In this document: positions 6,202-37,587 of the stretch, one piece after another
Layout of the letters: each line of letters starts with the position of its first letter
Position numbering within the stretch: the first letter of the stretch is position 1
Origin: Candidatus Brocadia sp. WS118
Lineage (GTDB): Bacteria; Planctomycetota; Brocadiia; Brocadiales; Brocadiaceae
Direction: 5' to 3'
DNA length: 37,587 nt
Assembly (NCBI GenBank): GCA_007618135.1
Contig: PHFX01000168.1
Coordinates: forward strand, 1-37,587
Notes under the pieces: model-generated
The model's input: the letters and a program-made list of their open reading frames with translations, nothing else
Databases searched by the model: none
What the model was told of the DNA's origin: nothing
Translations under genes and position numbers: made by a program

Positions 6202-7193
6202 TGGATATTTATCAGTTTAAGACCTTAATGAATAAAGGCAAAAGTTTTCCGGTCTTTGTATTTTATGGAGATGAATCATTTTTTGTCCATGAGGCGCTTT
6301 CTGCAGTAAAGGCTCATGTACTCAAGGGTAGCGATCCCGGCATAGCTTTGATTGAATTCAATGGAGATGAAATATCCGGGGGTATGTTGTTCGATGAATT
6401 AAGGACGGTACCGTTCTTTCCGGGCATAAATAAGCTGGTTCTTGTTGATGAAGCGGATGATTTTGTCGAAAAAAACCGGGGTATCCTTGAAAAGTATTTA
6501 CAAACGCCTGCAAGCCGCGCCCATCTGGTGTTGATATGCAATAAATGGGATAAACGGACGAAGCTGTCTACCCTGGTTGATAAGGTTGGAATTTCCATCG
6601 AGTGCAAAAGGTTAAAAGAGAATTCCTTGCCGGGTTGGGTACAAACTCATGCACGACAATACAAAAAAGAAATCACTGCCCTGGCTACTCAAAAACTGGT
6701 GGAGGATGTAGGTGGCAATCTGGCGATTCTGGATAAACATCTTGAAAAATTATCGGTTTATGTAGACGGGAAAACCACCATTGATGAAAGGGATGTGGAT
6801 GCCCTTGTTGGTGTGGATCGGGACCGGACGGTATTTGAGCTCACGGAGGCCGTTGCACAAAGAAACGTGACGCTGGCGCTGAAAGTATTAATTCAGATGT
6901 TGTCCCATGGCGAAGATTCGGCAAGAATTATTAGTTTATTGGCCTGGCAGATTAAGCGGCTATGGAGGGCAAAACAACTGCTACAGCAGGGAGAAAATGA
7001 GCAAAAGGTTGCTTCCGAGTTACAGCTCATCCCGTTTTTTGCAAAACGGTTTTTTGAACAGGTTAAACGGTATAGTGAAGAAGATCTGGCGAAAAATCAT
7101 GCACTTTTATTAGAAACCGACCTGAAAAGCAAGACCAGTTCTTTGAGCACCCATTTATTACTGGAATTGCTTGTGTATAGATTATGTGCTTAA
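6201..7193 (+). CDS. holA: DNA polymerase III delta subunit (clamp loader)
   Basis: This 330-residue protein is the delta subunit that opens the sliding clamp in the gamma/tau-delta-delta' loader. The N-terminus FPVFVFYGDESFFVHEAL and the segment ELRTVPFFPGINKLVLVDEAD are typical of HolA. The C-terminal collar region contains LSHGEDSARIISLLAWQIKRLWRAKQLL. As expected for delta, there is no functional Walker A. The start overlaps the cobU stop by one base, and the next small gene begins 2 bp after its stop. A replication gene coupled to a cobalamin gene is probably an accident of operon packing. Confidence 0.93.
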   Translation: MDIYQFKTLMNKGKSFPVFVFYGDESFFVHEALSAVKAHVLKGSDPGIALIEFNGDEISGGMLFDELRTVPFFPGINKLVLVDEADDFVEKNRGILEKYLQTPASRAHLVLICNKWDKRTKLSTLVDKVGISIECKRLKENSLPGWVQTHARQYKKEITALATQKLVEDVGGNLAILDKHLEKLSVYVDGKTTIDERDVDALVGVDRDRTVFELTEAVAQRNVTLALKVLIQMLSHGEDSARIISLLAWQIKRLWRAKQLLQQGENEQKVASELQLIPFFAKRFFEQVKRYSEEDLAKNHALLLETDLKSKTSSLSTHLLLELLVYRLCA

Positions 7194-7194
7194 A

Positions 7195-7458
7195 ATGATT
7201 GTAACAAAAAAGATACTTGCAGATAAGCTTATAAAATATATAAACAGAGAAAAGGATTTATCAAGTCTTGTAAACTGGGCAGAGGATATGATAAAAGAAG
7301 GTGATTTTGAAGATGAAAATTTTGAACTTTTAAGAAACATTCTCGCCAGGATTGGACTTGCAAATGTGCGTGAATTTGGTCTGAGTTGGGATGACTGTTA
7401 TGATTATCTTCATAAACTAGGATATGATGTGAAAGTAGAGGTGCCCGAGGCGACCTAA
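7195..7458 (+). CDS. Small acidic helical protein of unknown function
   Basis: This 87-residue protein starts at the ATG at 7195, 1 bp after the holA stop; an earlier start at 7171 would overlap holA. The sequence is mainly helical and acidic (SLVNWAEDMIKEGDFEDEN, ILARIGLANVREFGLSWDD, CYDYLHKLGYDVKVEV). No known motif is recognised. Size and composition resemble small immunity- or antitoxin-type proteins, but no toxin is adjacent. Tight spacing to holA suggests co-transcription. Confidence 0.7.
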   Translation: MIVTKKILADKLIKYINREKDLSSLVNWAEDMIKEGDFEDENFELLRNILARIGLANVREFGLSWDDCYDYLHKLGYDVKVEVPEAT

Positions 7459-7590
7459 CTGTTCTCCTTATGCGAGGCGGAGTGTATTTTCTGTGAAAAT
7501 GTAGCGCCGAACCTTGTGCTTGGCCTTGGTGGATAAACATAGTACCACAAATTATCTTTGAAACAAAATGATTTTGAGAAAGGAAAGAAA

Positions 7591-16929: not shown

Positions 16930-18459
16930 ATGGAATATATCGTTCTCAACGGTAATGGCCTTACCCTCGATCAGTTCATTCAGGGAGTGCGGGGTAAAAA
17001 GCAGGTTATGCTGAGCGAGACTGCAGAGGTAAAGGTGATTAGGTCACGTGAAACCGTAGAGCGTGCATTAAACTCCAAACAGGCCATCTACGGGCTAACA
17101 ACCGGTTTTGGCGCCCTGAGCGACGTGGTTATTTCGAAAGAACAAACAAAACAATTGCAAAAGAATATATTGATGAGCCATGCGGCTGGAGTTGGGGATT
17201 TTCTGGATGAAGAGACTGCCAGAGGCACATTGCTTCTCAAGATTCACGATCTGGCGAAAGGTCATTCAGGGATCAAACTGGAGACGCTGAAGACACTTGT
17301 GGAGATATTTAACAAGGGTGTATATCCCCTAATGCCTGAAAAAGGTTCTGTGGGCGCCAGTGGCGATCTTGCACCGCTTGCCCATATGGCCCTGGTCTTG
17401 GTTGGACAGGGACAGGGACGGTTTAAGGATAGAATTTTGAACGGAAAGGTTGCAATGGCAGAGGCGGGCATTCCATTACTTGATCTTGATGCGGGAGAGG
17501 GATTGGCCCTCATAAACGGGACACAGGTCATGACGGCCATCGGCGCCATCACCGTCTGTAACGCCATGAACTTACTCAAAACGGCCGACATCGCTGCTGG
17601 TATGAGTTTAGAGGTCTTGCTGGCATCAAATGTTGAGTTGGACAAGAAAATCCATGACGTAAGACCACATCCGGGACAGATCATTAGTGCAGACAATCTC
17701 CGGCGCATTATTCTGAACAGCGAGATCGTCTCATCGCATAAGGATTGTTCCCGTGTGCAGGATGCCTATTCCATCCGATGCTCTCCGCAGGTACACGGCG
17801 CATCCGTTGACGCCCTTCATTATGTAAGGAGGGTGATAGAAATTGAGATGAATGCGGCGACCGACAATCCTTTGATTTTCCCTGAGACAGACCAGATTAT
17901 TTCTGGTGGAAATTTTCATGGCCAACCTGTGGCACTGGCGTTAGATTTCCTTGCCATTGCCCTGTCAGAAATCGCCAATATCTCCGAGAGACGTACCGAG
18001 CGCCTGGTAAACCCTCAGCTGAGCGGCCTACCGGCATTTCTTATCAAAGACGCCGGTCTCAACTCAGGTTTTATGATAGCGCAATATACGGCTGCGGCAC
18101 TCGTTTCTGAAAACAAGGTGCTTGCCCACCCTGCCAGTGTCGATTCAATTCCAACATCGGCCAATAAGGAAGACCATGTAAGCATGGGGACAATTGCCGC
18201 GAGGAAATGCCGTGAGGTACTGAAAAATGCTGAGCATGTGATTTCCATTGAATTACTGTGTGCAGCTCAGGCGATGGACCTGTTTACCAATCTCAAGGCA
18301 GGTGTGGGAACCATGGAGGCATACCGTATTATTAGAAAACACATTTCTCACATGGAACAAGACCGCATCCTGTCTGATGATATAAATACGATGTATAAAC
18401 TGGTACACGAGGGCAAAATACTCAATGCAGTAGAAAACAAGATTGGCTTGCTGAATTAA
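16930..18459 (+). CDS. hutH: Histidine ammonia-lyase-like enzyme of the MIO aromatic amino acid lyase family
   Basis: This 509-residue enzyme forms the MIO cofactor from Ala-Ser-Gly, here A143-S144-G145 in KGSVGASGDLAPLAH. It would deaminate histidine to urocanate. YGLTTGFG (Y54) provides the catalytic tyrosine. The selectivity position is NILMSHAAGVG (S83-H84), the serine-histidine of histidine lyases, not the HL or FL of tyrosine or phenylalanine lyases. ATDNPLIF and GGNFHGQPVALALD are conserved core segments. No hutU, hutI or hutG is in the window, so a full Hut pathway is not shown. A different amino acid or a mutase role remains possible. Confidence 0.88.
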   Translation: MEYIVLNGNGLTLDQFIQGVRGKKQVMLSETAEVKVIRSRETVERALNSKQAIYGLTTGFGALSDVVISKEQTKQLQKNILMSHAAGVGDFLDEETARGTLLLKIHDLAKGHSGIKLETLKTLVEIFNKGVYPLMPEKGSVGASGDLAPLAHMALVLVGQGQGRFKDRILNGKVAMAEAGIPLLDLDAGEGLALINGTQVMTAIGAITVCNAMNLLKTADIAAGMSLEVLLASNVELDKKIHDVRPHPGQIISADNLRRIILNSEIVSSHKDCSRVQDAYSIRCSPQVHGASVDALHYVRRVIEIEMNAATDNPLIFPETDQIISGGNFHGQPVALALDFLAIALSEIANISERRTERLVNPQLSGLPAFLIKDAGLNSGFMIAQYTAAALVSENKVLAHPASVDSIPTSANKEDHVSMGTIAARKCREVLKNAEHVISIELLCAAQAMDLFTNLKAGVGTMEAYRIIRKHISHMEQDRILSDDINTMYKLVHEGKILNAVENKIGLLN

Positions 18460-24996: not shown

Positions 24997-25352
24997 TGGT
25001 GGAGGCGGCGGGAATTGAACCCGCGTCCCTAGACATTTCAGCATAGGCTTCTACGCACATAGTCTATTTTTTAAGTCTCGTCATCCTGAACCCCAATAGA
25101 CAGGGTTTCCGATAACCAGCTGAGTTTAAAAGTTCATTTCGTCCCCACTTAGCAAAAGGACTAAACTAACCTGCTAGTCGTCGTTTCATTACCCACGCAG
25201 GTAAGGATAATAAAACGTGGCTGTTAATTAAGCAGCCATTGCCATTGGATATTCGGCATTTAAATCATTTTGCCAGGTTTTTAATGAGGCCGCCTGACAA
25301 CCTCAATACGCCACCTATACCTCAACTTGTCCGGTCGAATCCTTTCGCCCCC
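24997..25352 (-). ncRNA. ssrA: Transfer-messenger RNA
   Basis: On the reverse strand the 5' end is GGGGGCGAAAGGATTCGACC and the 3' end closes with GGGTTCAATTCCCGCCGCCT then CCACCA, so the acceptor stem GGGGGC/GCCTCC pairs and CCA is encoded. About 356 nt is a normal length. The tag ends in Y-P-M-A-M-A-A followed by TAATTAA (stop at 25228-25230). Reading back from the stop gives NDLNAEYPMAMAA. The expected GCA resume codon is out of frame by one base (see findings). tmRNA with SmpB rescues stalled ribosomes. Confidence 0.97.
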
Positions 25353-28631: not shown

Positions 28632-29747
28632 TTAAGGCTTTGTCAAAATTCCTCTTTCTAATGCAAGAGGGTAAAATGCCATGCTTTGGCCATAATAGTT
28701 TTGAATCAAGGATTTTTCTCCCAGCCTGTTTTTGAATGAAGTTTTTATTGAATCAGGCTTGCTATTCAATACTTGTGCGATAAAATACGCCATTGCATCT
28801 GCCGCTAAACTGCCATATTCCACAGCCGGTTCTCCCGTATATTGATATACGGCCTTTATTCCTCCTGTATGAGAGATTGCAGTTTGTAAGAATTGATGTA
28901 TCTTTCTTAAAATCTTATTGGCCTCTTCAGTCTTGTACCAGAGTATATCAAGCCCGATCCTCATCGGAATTCTGACCGCCTCCCACCCATAATCAATTGA
29001 TCTGTCTTCAACTTTTAAAATATTTCCCTGCGCATCTACGATACACCAGTCTGGCAGTAAACCACATCCAGTTACCGTATCTAAACGAATACCCGCCTGG
29101 CTAAAGAGCCAATAGCCCGTCTCAATTACCCGCAACCACTGATTATCTTGTGTTGTTTCATAAAAGAGGCGGAATGCTGCGGGGCTGTAATACGAAGGAT
29201 TTTGTATGAGGCATCCATCCCTTTCCCTGCCCCATAATCCTGGCAGGAAAAAAAGTCGATTGTCAAATCCCCGTGCTGTCTCAAGCCTCATGGTATCGTT
29301 GATTACCTGGACGGCTTTTTCACGATATGTATGCCCCTTCCATTGATATGATGCCAGTAATAAGGCAAACGCATAATCACCATCGGCATCTGATGCTGCC
29401 ATCCAGTCGTTTACCTCGCCGTTCTTCCAATGCCACGCAAGGAGGTGATCCCCGTGTTTGCTGCCTCTGCTCAGATGTTCTTCTGTCCACCGGAAGACAA
29501 GATCAAACGTCTCTTTGTCCTTCATAAAAGCAGCGAATATCATCGCGTAGGCTTGCCCTTCACTTACCGTATCGTATTCATGTTCAGGCCGTTGAACGCG
29601 TCCGTCAGGTAGAATAAAGTTGTTTTTATAGGATTTCCACCATGTTTCCAATGGTTTTTCAGGAGGTCTTTTCATATGAGAGCATCCACTGACGAATAAA
29701 CAGATGAGGCCAATTGCATAAGAAATTTTTTTAACCTGCGATACCAT
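28632..29747 (-). CDS. Glycoside hydrolase family 8 lipoprotein (endoglucanase/BcsZ-like)
   Basis: This 371-residue protein has a lipobox LFVSGC (Cys22). It then shows GH8 motifs: EYDTVSEGQAYAMI with the general acid E63, WMAASDADGDYAFALLLA with the base region D120-D124, and YSPAAFRLF and DYGWEAVRIPMRIGLD in the family order. GH8 enzymes cut beta-1,4 glucans, chitosan or xylan; BcsZ trims cellulose during export. It lies 28 bp after the TPR/barrel gene in one transcript. The anchoring suggests it works in the periplasm or at the outer membrane on the polymer passing through that exporter. No synthase gene is in the window. Confidence 0.93.
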   Translation of the reverse strand: MVSQVKKISYAIGLICLFVSGCSHMKRPPEKPLETWWKSYKNNFILPDGRVQRPEHEYDTVSEGQAYAMIFAAFMKDKETFDLVFRWTEEHLSRGSKHGDHLLAWHWKNGEVNDWMAASDADGDYAFALLLASYQWKGHTYREKAVQVINDTMRLETARGFDNRLFFLPGLWGRERDGCLIQNPSYYSPAAFRLFYETTQDNQWLRVIETGYWLFSQAGIRLDTVTGCGLLPDWCIVDAQGNILKVEDRSIDYGWEAVRIPMRIGLDILWYKTEEANKILRKIHQFLQTAISHTGGIKAVYQYTGEPAVEYGSLAADAMAYFIAQVLNSKPDSIKTSFKNRLGEKSLIQNYYGQSMAFYPLALERGILTKP

Positions 29748-29775
29748 GGAAATTCACGTTTCAGCAGAGTTCTCG

Positions 29776-32700
29776 TTAGAAACGAATATTACAGAAAATT
29801 CCGGCCTGTTCTTCCTCAAATACCTTTGACTGTACGGGTCTTATTTCAAATCCTATATTCCACCGTCTCTGGTCATCCCATCCAAATTCAAATCTTGGCT
29901 CAATAAAATCGACACTATCAGAATCGATGCTTTCTCTTAAGGCAAGCTCGTAAAAAAGTTTTGGAGCGCCGCTGAAATGTTCCTTTCCCAGGTAATGCCT
30001 CCAGACAACCCCCCCGATGTATTTCCGATAATCATGAGGAGACCAATATTCATCCCGTCGTGCATGGACATCATATCCATAGGTTTCCACGACAAACTTC
30101 AGGATTTTAGGATACAACGAGAGTTTATAGCCGATGGTTGTGTAGTCCTCGGTGCCATTATTACTGTCATCGTACCAATGCTTTTTGAATTGACTCGAAA
30201 TATCGATGCGCTGAGATATATCCCAGGCAAAACGTCCGCCGGTAAAGTAACGCCCCCTGTTGTTCTCCAGGGTATTGAAATTTTGCAGCACGTCTTCCCT
30301 GCCGCCAAATACCGTAACATCGAACGTGTCAAAAAAACGATAGGCGCCACCGGCTTCAAACTGCACTGTTTCGTGACGGTTTTCGGAATATGTTGATGCT
30401 TCTCCATCCAGATAGGTTGTTATCCCCTGCTCAAAATATTTATTGACCTGTAAGGTAAGATGTTCCGCAACCGAACCGCTGTGTTCCGTGAAATTAAACA
30501 CCGTATTTCCCAGACCTACAGACAGGTCCATTGCCTCAGAGAGTCTCACCGGGGCATATGCAGCGTCTGTTCTGAACATCATGATCTCATAATTTCCAAA
30601 ATCATCACCACTGCCTTTCTGGTGGATATATGATTGTTTCAGCCTTACTGATTGTTTGCGTCTCCACTGTTCTGATTCCCGGGCAAATTGTGCATGGTTG
30701 TGTTCCGGCGCATAGACTAGTAATTTCTGGTACGTATCTTCTGCCGGAGTACTTAGATTAAGCTGAGAGTACATTTGCCCCAAATCAAACAGTATTTCAC
30801 TATCGTCAGGGCGCCGTTCTGCCAATTCACGGTAAAACGATATGGCGGTTCGTTTTCTGCCCAGCCAGTTGTTCCTTTTTGCCTTCCACTCACAGAGGAT
30901 TTCGTCATCTTCTGGATAATCTTTGCAAAGTTTTTGGTACGCCTCGTTTGCCTCACGGGGACGCAAAGCCCAGCCATACACCCTGGCGGCTTCACGGCGC
31001 CGGTCAAAATCCAACGGCCGTTCTCTGAGGTATGCATCGTACCACCTCAATGATTCGTCATATTCATGCCTCCAGGCATTCACCTGCGCCAGCCATCGTA
31101 CACATCTCACATCCGTGGGGTCATTTTTCTGAAGCGCCAGAAACTGCTCACAGGCCAGGTCATAATCGTTGTGTGTGGCCAGCAATTTCGCATATTGATA
31201 CCGGAGTCCTGAATCGCCTGGGAATTGGCCTACCGCCTGTCGCAGCCACTCCTTCGCAAATTCATAGTTTTGACTTTGTCTGCCCCGGTCGAAATATCCA
31301 ATCCTTTCTAAAATTGTCTGAAAACTGGCAAGATTTCCCGGTTGATTTGAAAGGTATTGTTTTACGATCCCATCTGCCATTGCGCGATCGCCGGATTGAA
31401 TATTTGCAATTGCCACAATCGCCTTGACAGAGGTCTTTTGTGAAATATCTTCTGGAAATAGAAACAACTTCGCCGAAAGTTCTTCTTTACTCTTTTTTAA
31501 CTTAACCAGTGCCTCAAAGTAACGGGTTGTTTCTTTTTCCGGCAAACCGGGTAATGGAATCTGATGCAATAGTTTGTTTGCTTCCTCCGGATTATTCTGA
31601 CCCAGGTAACATTCCACCATACCAAGTTTATAGAGCGGGTCTTTTTTCTCTTTTTCCAGTTCCTTGTAGAGCATCACGGATTGCTGATAATTACCGGCTT
31701 TATACTCAGCCTTTGCCCGCTGGGTACTTACTTCCGGATTGCGGTGCAGAGCCATCTCGTCAGCAATTTTCCAGGCGGAAAGTGGCACAGCATCGAGGAG
31801 TTGGGGTCTGACCATCTCAGTTTCCGCTGTAAACCCCTCCAATACCTTACCTAACACCTGATTTGCGTTCTCATATGCTCCTAATTGTCTCTCGGCAGAC
31901 AGTAATAAAACCGTAAGAATTGACGGGCCAGGGTCTTTTTCATCGCTTTTTGATAATAATTCGATTTCTGTACGGGCTTCTTCATATTGTCCTATGCGTA
32001 TTTGGGAAAGAATACGCAGCGTCAACACTTTAGACCTTTCAGCCACTTCCTCGTGAGACAGTTTTTGTAATATTGAGAATGATTTTTTGAGGAGCATTCC
32101 GTCTTTCTCTAAAGCATAGTAGCATTCCAATTCTAACATTCGCAGCCGGAGTCCTGTTTCTTTGTCCCCTTCCAGCGTATGAATTATTGACAGCGCGTCA
32201 TCATATCGGCTTGTTAAGGATAAGATTTCAGCCTTTGTAGCTTCAATAATCGGTTTTGATTGAGGAGAAACAGGATATTTATCCAGGATTTCAAATCCCT
32301 TTCCGGGCATTTCCTGGTAGGTATAGAGAATAGCCAATTTCGCCAGCAGGTGCACCTCAGGAACATAATTGCTGTCAGACACAATCTTTTCAAGGGTATC
32401 CAATGCGGCAGCCAGTTTCCTCTGGGAAAGAAATTTGTCTACGATCATCAAAGCAGAAGCGCTCCAGGTGTCTGATTCTTTGCTGATTGTCTTCCAGATC
32501 TCAATTGCCTTCTCTGATTCCCCTAGAGACAAATGTGCATCAACAAGAAGGGCACGGACATCATCGGTAATTTCAATTTTATCCCTTCCCGCTTGCAAGG
32601 TATCCAAGAGTAAAGGCCACTTCTTTGCCCACGATAACACCTTGATCAGTTGAGACCAGAGTTCACGATTATCCGGAGACTGATGAACCAATTTTTGGTA

Positions 32701-33393
32701 TTTTTCAATTGCTGTATCGTAATTTCCCGACCAAGCATCTATATCAGCGGAGAGTTGCCGTAATTTCAGACTTTTTTCCTCGTCAGGAACTTGAGCAATT
32801 GTTTCTTGAGCTTTGGCATATTTCTTTAAGCCCACGAGAAGATTTATTTTGAGAAGCATTATTACCCGATTGTGTGAATCATGAAGTAAAATCTTGTCAC
32901 AGAGGTCAAGAGCCTCCCCATATTTTTCCTGCCCGGCAAAAACACCGGCTACCTCCTCAGCAAGCGTTAAATCGCCCTCATCAAGTAATAACGCCTGCAT
33001 ATAATATGCTATAGCACGGTCGTCCTTCTTATTCTTGATTGCATTTCGGGCCGCATTGATCAAGAGTTTTTTGGCATAACCATCCTTGCCCCCGGTCGCA
33101 ATTCCCATCTTCTGTATTAAATATTCGTAGTGGACAGCAGCGTTACGGTAGTTTCCACAATCCTGTAGAAAATCTGCATATTCCAACTCAACGGCATAAT
33201 CTTCAGGGTTTATCTTCAGGTAGTTATCATATCGCCGGATAGCTTTTTTCGTCCACCCTGCCTTCGCTGCATTCCGTGCAGCCATCAGGAAGAGTAATGA
33301 TTCTTCCTCTTTTTTTCCCCGTGCATGAAGGGTTACCACAAGAGCAAAAATAATTGAAAGTCCCAGAATAACAGCTATCAACGTTTTTTTCAT
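29776..33393 (-). CDS. Large TPR protein with C-terminal outer-membrane beta-barrel, polysaccharide-export-like
   Basis: This 1205-residue protein starts at the ATG at 33393, after AAGGAGAAAA; an in-frame start at 33438 is less likely. MKKTLIAVILGLSIIFALVV is a signal sequence. Many TPR-like helices follow (for example ALDLCDKILLHDSHNRVIML, then EAYQKLCKDYPEDDEILCEW) to about residue 910. The last 280 residues are alternating beta strands with aromatic ends, closing in GIFCNIRF, as for outer-membrane barrels. This architecture is that of BcsC, PgaA and PelB exopolysaccharide exporters. With the GH8 partner it suggests secretion of a beta-glucan or amino-sugar polymer. Which polymer is not shown. 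Confidence 0.88.
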   Translation of the reverse strand: MKKTLIAVILGLSIIFALVVTLHARGKKEEESLLFLMAARNAAKAGWTKKAIRRYDNYLKINPEDYAVELEYADFLQDCGNYRNAAVHYEYLIQKMGIATGGKDGYAKKLLINAARNAIKNKKDDRAIAYYMQALLLDEGDLTLAEEVAGVFAGQEKYGEALDLCDKILLHDSHNRVIMLLKINLLVGLKKYAKAQETIAQVPDEEKSLKLRQLSADIDAWSGNYDTAIEKYQKLVHQSPDNRELWSQLIKVLSWAKKWPLLLDTLQAGRDKIEITDDVRALLVDAHLSLGESEKAIEIWKTISKESDTWSASALMIVDKFLSQRKLAAALDTLEKIVSDSNYVPEVHLLAKLAILYTYQEMPGKGFEILDKYPVSPQSKPIIEATKAEILSLTSRYDDALSIIHTLEGDKETGLRLRMLELECYYALEKDGMLLKKSFSILQKLSHEEVAERSKVLTLRILSQIRIGQYEEARTEIELLSKSDEKDPGPSILTVLLLSAERQLGAYENANQVLGKVLEGFTAETEMVRPQLLDAVPLSAWKIADEMALHRNPEVSTQRAKAEYKAGNYQQSVMLYKELEKEKKDPLYKLGMVECYLGQNNPEEANKLLHQIPLPGLPEKETTRYFEALVKLKKSKEELSAKLFLFPEDISQKTSVKAIVAIANIQSGDRAMADGIVKQYLSNQPGNLASFQTILERIGYFDRGRQSQNYEFAKEWLRQAVGQFPGDSGLRYQYAKLLATHNDYDLACEQFLALQKNDPTDVRCVRWLAQVNAWRHEYDESLRWYDAYLRERPLDFDRRREAARVYGWALRPREANEAYQKLCKDYPEDDEILCEWKAKRNNWLGRKRTAISFYRELAERRPDDSEILFDLGQMYSQLNLSTPAEDTYQKLLVYAPEHNHAQFARESEQWRRKQSVRLKQSYIHQKGSGDDFGNYEIMMFRTDAAYAPVRLSEAMDLSVGLGNTVFNFTEHSGSVAEHLTLQVNKYFEQGITTYLDGEASTYSENRHETVQFEAGGAYRFFDTFDVTVFGGREDVLQNFNTLENNRGRYFTGGRFAWDISQRIDISSQFKKHWYDDSNNGTEDYTTIGYKLSLYPKILKFVVETYGYDVHARRDEYWSPHDYRKYIGGVVWRHYLGKEHFSGAPKLFYELALRESIDSDSVDFIEPRFEFGWDDQRRWNIGFEIRPVQSKVFEEEQAGIFCNIRF

Positions 33394-33480
33394 TTTTCTC
33401 CTTTTTTGTTCTTCACAGCATAGAAGATAAGGTGTCATCCTTTGAAGGTACTATAGTGAACATTTTAAATAAGCTGGCAT

Positions 33481-33710
33481 GTAACAATTTAGTTTTTTGA
33501 AAAATTTCAGTAAAATGAGGCTTTAACCATCATCGATGGACAAGGTATACCATGAGAAACACACCCCTAAATCCCCTCTTTTTAGAGGGGACTTCTGCTC
33601 TCCCCTCTAAAAAGAGGGGCCGGGGGTGTGTTTGAAACCATCAAACACTTTGTCCGTACCGTAGAACCAAAAACAGATTGAATCTTTTTTTCAAAAAACT
33701 AAAATGTTAC
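33481..33710. mobile_element. Candidate 230-bp MITE with 24-bp terminal inverted repeats
   Basis: Left end GTAACAATTTAGTTTTTTGA and AAAA (33481-33504) and the inverse of the right end (33687-33710) differ at one base in 24. Inside is a nested palindrome: ACACACCCC, then CCCCTCTTTTTAGAGGGG (33573-33590), and an inverted partner CCCCTCTAAAAAGAGGGG (33602-33619), then GGGGTGTGT. No ORF is present. No clear target-site duplication was found. It sits upstream of the TPR/barrel gene. Confidence 0.6.
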
Positions 33711-37476: not shown

Positions 37477-37587
37477 TCATCCATAATCAGATTGAGGTAT
37501 ACCCATTGTAAGGGAAACACCTATCAAAATATCAGCAAGCCTTCGTATTCCCCGCCACATTACTTCCACACCAGGTTCTCTCTCTTT
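37477..37587 (-). CDS. Partial C-terminus of a probable IS4-type DDE transposase
   Basis: A reverse-strand frame enters from the right edge and reads REPGVEVMWRGIRRLADILI, then GVSLTMGIPQSDYG and TGA (37479-37477). The PG-x-x-V-(M/L)-WRG-x-(R/K)RL-x-D pattern is common at the end of IS4-superfamily transposases. Only 36 codons are visible, and the assignment is by eye. Confidence 0.5.
   Translation of the reverse strand, partial: KEREPGVEVMWRGIRRLADILIGVSLTMGIPQSDYG

Follow-up and report, generated by a model that had tools for sequence, protein, structure and literature searches.

The TPR/barrel exporter and the GH8 lipoprotein encoded side by side in the DNA analysed here probably constitute the outer-membrane half of a c-di-GMP-gated, synthase-dependent exopolysaccharide locus that was cut by a contig break and in which a TPR protein stands in the place of BcsB. 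What is unusual about this locus is that BcsB is absent in Brocadia, whereas what had first seemed surprising, the apparent lack of a synthase, comes from the assembly. Brocadia are ammonium-oxidising bacteria of wastewater, and the locus belongs to a cellulose-synthase-like, matrix-polymer type without BcsB. A conserved family that has no BcsB and yet retains the BcsA gating loop along with TPR exporter and glycosidase provides a natural test of the role of BcsB and of the coupling between synthase and exporter; for wastewater biology, the finding singles out one locus, equipped with c-di-GMP genes of its own, as a possible source of a polysaccharide of Brocadia granules. Our literature search found no paper joining anammox, Brocadia and cellulose synthase.

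The window, i.e. the whole stretch of DNA that was analysed (37587 bp), is one entire contig, C231, of a 5.04 Mb genome assembled in 299 contigs. Its GH8 protein is 82%, 81% and 72% identical to the proteins of B. carolinensis, B. pituitae and B. sapporoensis, respectively, and these matches in Candidatus Brocadia genomes identify the source as an anammox planctomycete. Elsewhere in the window lie a tmRNA gene (24997-25352; tag AEYPMAMAA) and, in what is an anammox genome, an aromatic amino acid lyase of the HAL/PAL family (16930-18459; PF00221, E 9e-194).

The preliminary description had reported an exporter and glycosidase pair without a synthase, which is true of the window alone, since the contig ends there; the synthases are located on the adjoining contig C91 of the same genome. 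The last 173 bases of the window belong to a dispersed repeat with five further copies in the genome (94-100% identity over ~142-175 bp), and the repeat, being an ordinary reason for such breaks, is the likely cause of the interruption after position 37587. The unique flank at the end of C231 aligns to positions 6629-7066 of a B. pituitae locus (L101, from a complete genome) and the flank at the start of C91 to positions 7064-7490 of the same locus on the same strand, so that both contig ends border the same site; no exact overlap was found between the end of C231 and the start of C91, and their adjacency rests on these flanks. To judge from this alignment, the missing synthase is an assembly artefact and one locus is split over the two contigs (Table 1). 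The start of the exporter lies ~9 kb plus the repeat away from the nearer synthase copy, with the histidine kinase, Hpt, response regulator and HDOD genes in between.

Table 1. Features of the locus in the window (C231) and on the adjoining contig (C91)
Feature	Contig	Position	Strand	Description
Intact GT2-PilZ synthase	C91	6379-8622	-	747 aa; BcsA-like
Second synthase, broken (L022)	C91	4617-6357	-	~150 residues of the transmembrane part lost, frame changes
Small TPR gene	C91	4159-4599	-	one predicted N-terminal TM, then TPRs; membrane-anchored
249-aa gene	C91	3148-3897	-	from the gene list of C91
Histidine kinase	C91	489-3170	-	from the gene list of C91
Dispersed repeat at contig end	C231	37415-37587		site where the assembly broke; C91 begins on the other side
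Hpt phosphotransfer protein	C231	36977-37480	-	PF01627 E 4.1e-10; order conserved in relatives
Response regulator with GGDEF and HD_5 (HD-GYP-like)	C231	35246-36880	-	Response_reg 3.1e-26, GGDEF 6.5e-44, HD_5 4.5e-21
HDOD signalling protein	C231	34183-35112	-	PF08668 E 6.4e-60
TPR/barrel exporter	C231	29776-33393	-	1205 aa: signal peptide, ~900 residues of TPR, and ~300 C-terminal residues interpreted as an outer-membrane beta-barrel
GH8 lipoprotein, BcsZ-like	C231	28632-29747	-	PF01270 E 2.5e-41; 28 bp downstream of the exporter
HtrA-type protease, convergent neighbour	C231	27036-28547	+	Trypsin_2 8.7e-33 and two PDZ domains

A scan of the genome for GT2 domains gave its best match on C91, where the intact synthase finds its nearest solved structures in E. 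coli BcsA (E 2e-76), is recognised by the Pfam PilZ model (E 1e-11) and resembles PgaC weakly (63 of 422 bits). Against the CelA model TIGR03030 it scores 357 bits (E 1.1e-106), short of the cut-off of 699 bits, whereas the BcsA of Kuenenia reaches 828 bits. The motifs DDG, D-D (DAD), FFxG, TED and QxLRW, together with the gating-loop motif FKVTGKG, are conserved in all aligned Brocadia-type synthases; the second PilZ region keeps both RxxxR and NDhSxxG (here NDVSxxG), and the first is degenerate, with D-N-G for D-S-G. The BcsA feature of Bcs systems, i.e. a processive GT2 with its motifs, gating loop and PilZ, is accordingly present at the sequence level. Two full synthase copies are retained in three relatives (G017, G022 and G041).

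The longest open frame of the exporter (29776-33438, minus strand) includes an upstream ATG at 33438; we place the start at the ATG at 33393, however, because a Shine-Dalgarno GGAG precedes it and the relatives start there, and this ATG is exactly where the pair had been taken to end in the preliminary description. The protein opens with the signal peptide MKKTLIAVILGLSIIFALVVTLHA, its repeats match TPR_19 (E 1.8e-36) and the PgaA model matches its TPR part (E 8.7e-11). The C-terminal domain of ~300 residues is 56-94% identical across the aligned anammox copies and closes with the aromatic terminus ...AGIFCNIRF, which resembles the BAM C-terminal signal; we presume this domain to be an outer-membrane barrel. 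The BCSC_C model, which stands for the 16-strand barrel of BcsC, found no match in the exporter, a profile search of the PDB with the C-terminal domain returned nothing up to E 10, so no solved barrel, and hhalign gave the C-terminus a probability of 1.7% against E. coli BcsC and 0.2% against PgaA. An AF2 model of residues 800-1220 was discarded (barrel part pLDDT ~22), and a strand count by amphipathicity was rejected as evidence, the 16 peaks obtained having to be set against 14 in a helical TPR control. Hence, of the BcsC-BcsZ-type pair described earlier, the TPR exporter and GH8 genes and their family matches stand, and the barrel is kept as a presumption.

The GH8 protein, the sole GH8 of the genome, is BcsZ-like across residues 36-362, with 139 of the 299 bits that the BcsZ equivalog model demands and thus under its cut-off, and in the PDB it matches the endoglucanase CelA (E 1.3e-23). 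That it is a lipoprotein, unlike the soluble BcsZ, had been proposed from the outset and is borne out by a lipobox, VSGC, whose Cys22 is invariant in five aligned sequences and is followed by Ser at +2; the alignment reveals no such lipobox in the BcsZ of E. coli or Kuenenia. Glu63 is aligned with the catalytic acid, BcsZ Glu55 and CelA Glu95. At the position of BcsZ Asp243, the catalytic base, sits Glu256 (window 28980-28982), and the anammox GH8s, those of Brocadia and Kuenenia alike, carry Glu where BcsZ and CelA carry Asp. An AF2 model of the protein (mean pLDDT 43) was not used. The BcsZ-type GH8 component of Bcs systems is thus represented here by a predicted enzyme.

Exporter orthologues occur in 11 of the 11 Brocadia genomes. 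The dN/dS ratio of the exporter is 0.17, exporter and GH8 together range over 0.16-0.24, indicating purifying selection, and once the synthase and the small TPR gene are included the ratios span 0.10-0.27, from which we conclude that these four genes are maintained. The exporter reading frame is in two frames in B. carolinensis (L095 2109-5727) and in G021 (L102 7796-11415), reflecting either sequencing error or real decay.

The relatives show the locus uninterrupted. Synthase, small TPR gene, histidine kinase, Hpt, response regulator, HDOD, exporter and GH8 follow one another on a single contig in four of them (L092, L093, L094 and L095), and in four others (L097, L098, L099 and L102), where the regulators are missing, the synthase is directly succeeded by the small TPR gene, the exporter and the GH8; overall, synthase and exporter share one cluster in at least eight genomes. 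At cut-offs of E<=1e-30 for the synthase and E<=1e-10 for the exporter, both are present in the same 16 of the 33 Brocadiaceae genomes and both absent from the same 17; these 33 genomes share kinship and are not 33 independent trials, so that adjacency is the stronger evidence. The GH8 is found in 14 of the 16, and the other two (G022 and G023) are highly fragmented assemblies. One bearer of the system, G041, is of another genus, and transfer or a binning error may account for it. The co-occurring c-di-GMP-binding glycosyltransferase that the preliminary description had suggested seeking elsewhere in the genome has therefore a counterpart in the BcsA-like GT2-PilZ synthase, which is present in every one of the 16 genomes that carry the exporter.

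These arrangements bear on whether exporter and GH8 might be an orphan pair that serves the synthase of some other system, or takes part in degradation or uptake of foreign polysaccharide, the linkage to the GT2-PilZ synthase being incidental. In B. pituitae the nuo (complex I) operon is inserted within the locus, separating the HDOD gene from the exporter (L100 6941 to L101 3626), and Kuenenia has one more member of this exporter family with no adjoining synthase, both of which would fit such a pair; the perfect co-occurrence of synthase and exporter, their direct adjacency in the four compact loci and the fact that in other planctomycete families, too, exporter and glycosidase genes are paired with a related synthase nevertheless make it very improbable. 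Against our preferred reading of one split locus stands an intergenic gap of ~790 bp upstream of the exporter, across which co-transcription is only a possibility. This long intergenic region contains an inverted repeat with arms CCCCTCT...AGAGGGG (window 33583-33629), and scans for promoters and terminators returned no more than chance.

From the sequences compared, then, the component missing from the Brocadia locus is BcsB rather than the synthase. E. coli BcsA depends on BcsB for its activity, BcsC is tethered to BcsB through the first TPR of BcsC, and secretion calls for an active BcsZ (PMC11379886). The BcsB model PF03170 found no match in any of the 11 Brocadia genomes, and among the 33 Brocadiaceae it matches in four, i.e. 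three genomes of genus g6 and one of genus g9 (E ~1e-105, 350-365 bits), in which the canonical order of synthase, BcsB, GH8 and exporter is observed and BcsA exceeds the CelA cut-off. One of the g6 genomes, G031, presumably represents Kuenenia stuttgartiensis. The Kuenenia-type genomes (L103, L104, L105 and L106) carry, besides the canonical bcsABZC, a further exporter that belongs with the one of Brocadia (~47% identical) and that in G031 (L106) lies away from the bcs cluster with no synthase adjoining, a truly orphan exporter.

A canonical Bcs cellulose system whose very divergent BcsB had escaped the searches, with nothing unusual about it, would account for the Bcs counterparts that synthase, exporter and GH8 each have, and there is precedent in other groups for divergent BcsB proteins that need sensitive HMMs and for a BcsAB fusion (PMC7112194). 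Yet PF03170 finds nothing in the 11 Brocadia genomes and in nine other planctomycete genomes while scoring 350-365 bits in the Kuenenia type, no BcsB-sized gene lies between synthase and GH8 in the four compact loci, and the 747-aa synthase consists of GT2, transmembrane and PilZ regions only, with no BcsB portion; we accordingly give this explanation a slim chance. The Brocadia system would work much as Bcs does, but it lacks BcsB, a defining feature, so we would not class it among the Bcs cellulose systems.

The signalling genes that separate the two halves had been noted as c-di-GMP genes nearby, and the response regulator with GGDEF and HD domains, the HDOD gene and the Hpt gene were indeed found. 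The GGDEF and HD_5 domains of the response regulator point to c-di-GMP turnover, its placement between synthase and exporter is conserved in relatives, and the HDOD gene occupies the same position in seven loci (L101, L108 and L109 in addition to L092, L093, L094 and L095). Four relatives have a locus devoid of kinase, response regulator and HDOD genes, which implies that the regulators are not obligatory. The HtrA-type protease adjoins the GH8 in L092, L093, L097 and L102 and lies outside the proposed machine.

With the genes ordered from C91 into the window as two tandem synthases, small TPR gene, histidine kinase, Hpt, GGDEF/HD response regulator, HDOD, exporter and GH8, the mechanism we propose would run as follows. 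The response regulator would make or remove c-di-GMP locally; c-di-GMP would bind the PilZ of the synthase and open its gating loop, a form of gating that the retention of both the loop and a complete PilZ motif renders likely. The synthase would then polymerise a UDP-sugar and thread the chain across the inner membrane, the inner-membrane TPR protein might dock the synthase to the periplasmic TPR solenoid of the exporter, the chain would exit via the barrel, and the GH8, tethered to the outer membrane, would trim misdirected chains. The product may be beta-glucan-like, as is suggested by a GH8 or GH5 partner. The transmembrane TPR protein is the sole conserved candidate for the link between synthase and exporter. 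The earlier idea of a c-di-GMP-linked variant of matrix-polymer secretion in an aggregate-forming bacterium is therefore retained as to the BcsC/BcsZ-like pair, the anammox host and the c-di-GMP genes at the locus, and abandoned as to the want of a synthase.

Relatives of this machinery extend beyond anammox bacteria. Synthases of three non-anammox families (f37, f61 and f65) are 33-36% identical to that of Brocadia over approximately residues 6-702 (E 1e-111 to 1e-138), a closer match than that between the synthases of Brocadia and Kuenenia (E ~1e-66), and PF03170 was not found in any of the nine non-anammox planctomycete genomes tested. Four of the five non-anammox loci read encode a synthase of 1167-1208 aa with a C-terminal transmembrane segment plus TPR repeats, and a TPR exporter-like protein and a protein of the GH5 cellulase family, the N-terminus of which looks lipoprotein-like by eye, adjoin it. 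The small TPR protein of Brocadia, encoded immediately downstream of the synthase, has the layout of this fused tail (TM, then TPRs). As a whole protein it matches three fused synthases at E 1e-12, 2e-11 and 4e-8, and two exporters at 3e-7 and 6e-5; because part of the match to the fused tail is no better than what TPRs give in general, homology is only suggestive, and so is the reading of the small protein as a split-off counterpart of that tail. A tree of synthase cores, in which the Brocadia and TPR-fused types fell outside the BcsA group (branch support 91/67, several long branches), was not relied on. We tentatively propose, as an idea perhaps a little likelier to fail than to hold, a distinct planctomycete class of synthase-dependent secretion in which a periplasmic TPR arm anchored in the membrane would take over from BcsB. 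In other planctomycetes this arm would be the tail at the C-terminus of the GT2-PilZ synthase, and in Brocadia it would have become a small gene of its own; in either form it would dock directly on the exporter's TPR solenoid, GH8 or GH5 lipoproteins would serve interchangeably as trimmers, and in Brocadia the system would supply a polysaccharide of the anammox granule matrix.

Compared with known systems, the Brocadia locus is akin to Bcs in having a BcsA-like GT2 that carries a gating loop and PilZ, a TPR exporter with a presumed barrel, a GH8 and a c-di-GMP context; it differs in having a small TM-anchored TPR protein instead of BcsB, often tandem synthases, two PilZ-like regions, a lipoprotein GH8, a synthase at about half the CelA cut-off and an exporter without a BCSC_C match. 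The PgaABCD system of PNAG shares the TPR exporter, whose barrel is presumed in Brocadia, and PgaB is likewise a lipoprotein polymer hydrolase; PgaB, however, combines a deacetylase with a beta-1,6 hydrolase and is not a GH8, and the Brocadia synthase is BcsA-like. The NfrB-NfrA-YbcH system, which makes the N4 receptor glycan of E. coli, dispenses with BcsB and relies on a processive, c-di-GMP-binding GT2, an outer-membrane pore with TPRs and a periplasmic helper or scaffold anchored in the membrane (PMC8669469), so that one might regard the Brocadia locus as a system of this kind making a non-glucan polymer. We assign this reading only a very small probability, given that the solved structures closest to the synthase are those of BcsA, that it carries PilZ instead of MshEN, which the domain scan of the synthase did not find, that a GH8 or GH5 partner suggests a beta-glucan-like chain, NfrBA having no GH8, and that the NfrA family has no match among the window proteins; the resemblance is general only. 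A further parallel to the Brocadia locus is offered by cyanobacterial XcsA (type IV bcs operons), where a PilZ-bearing cellulose synthase and an endoglucanase occur without BcsB (PMC12430437) and an HlyD-like adaptor plus TolC are found where Brocadia has the TPR arm and the TPR/barrel exporter. The bcsB losses reported for Zymomonas are BcsAB fusions (PMC7112194), unlike Brocadia, whose synthase carries no BcsB. BcsB-less synthase systems with other adaptors are already known, both from cyanobacteria (PMC12430437) and from NfrBA of E. coli (PMC8669469).
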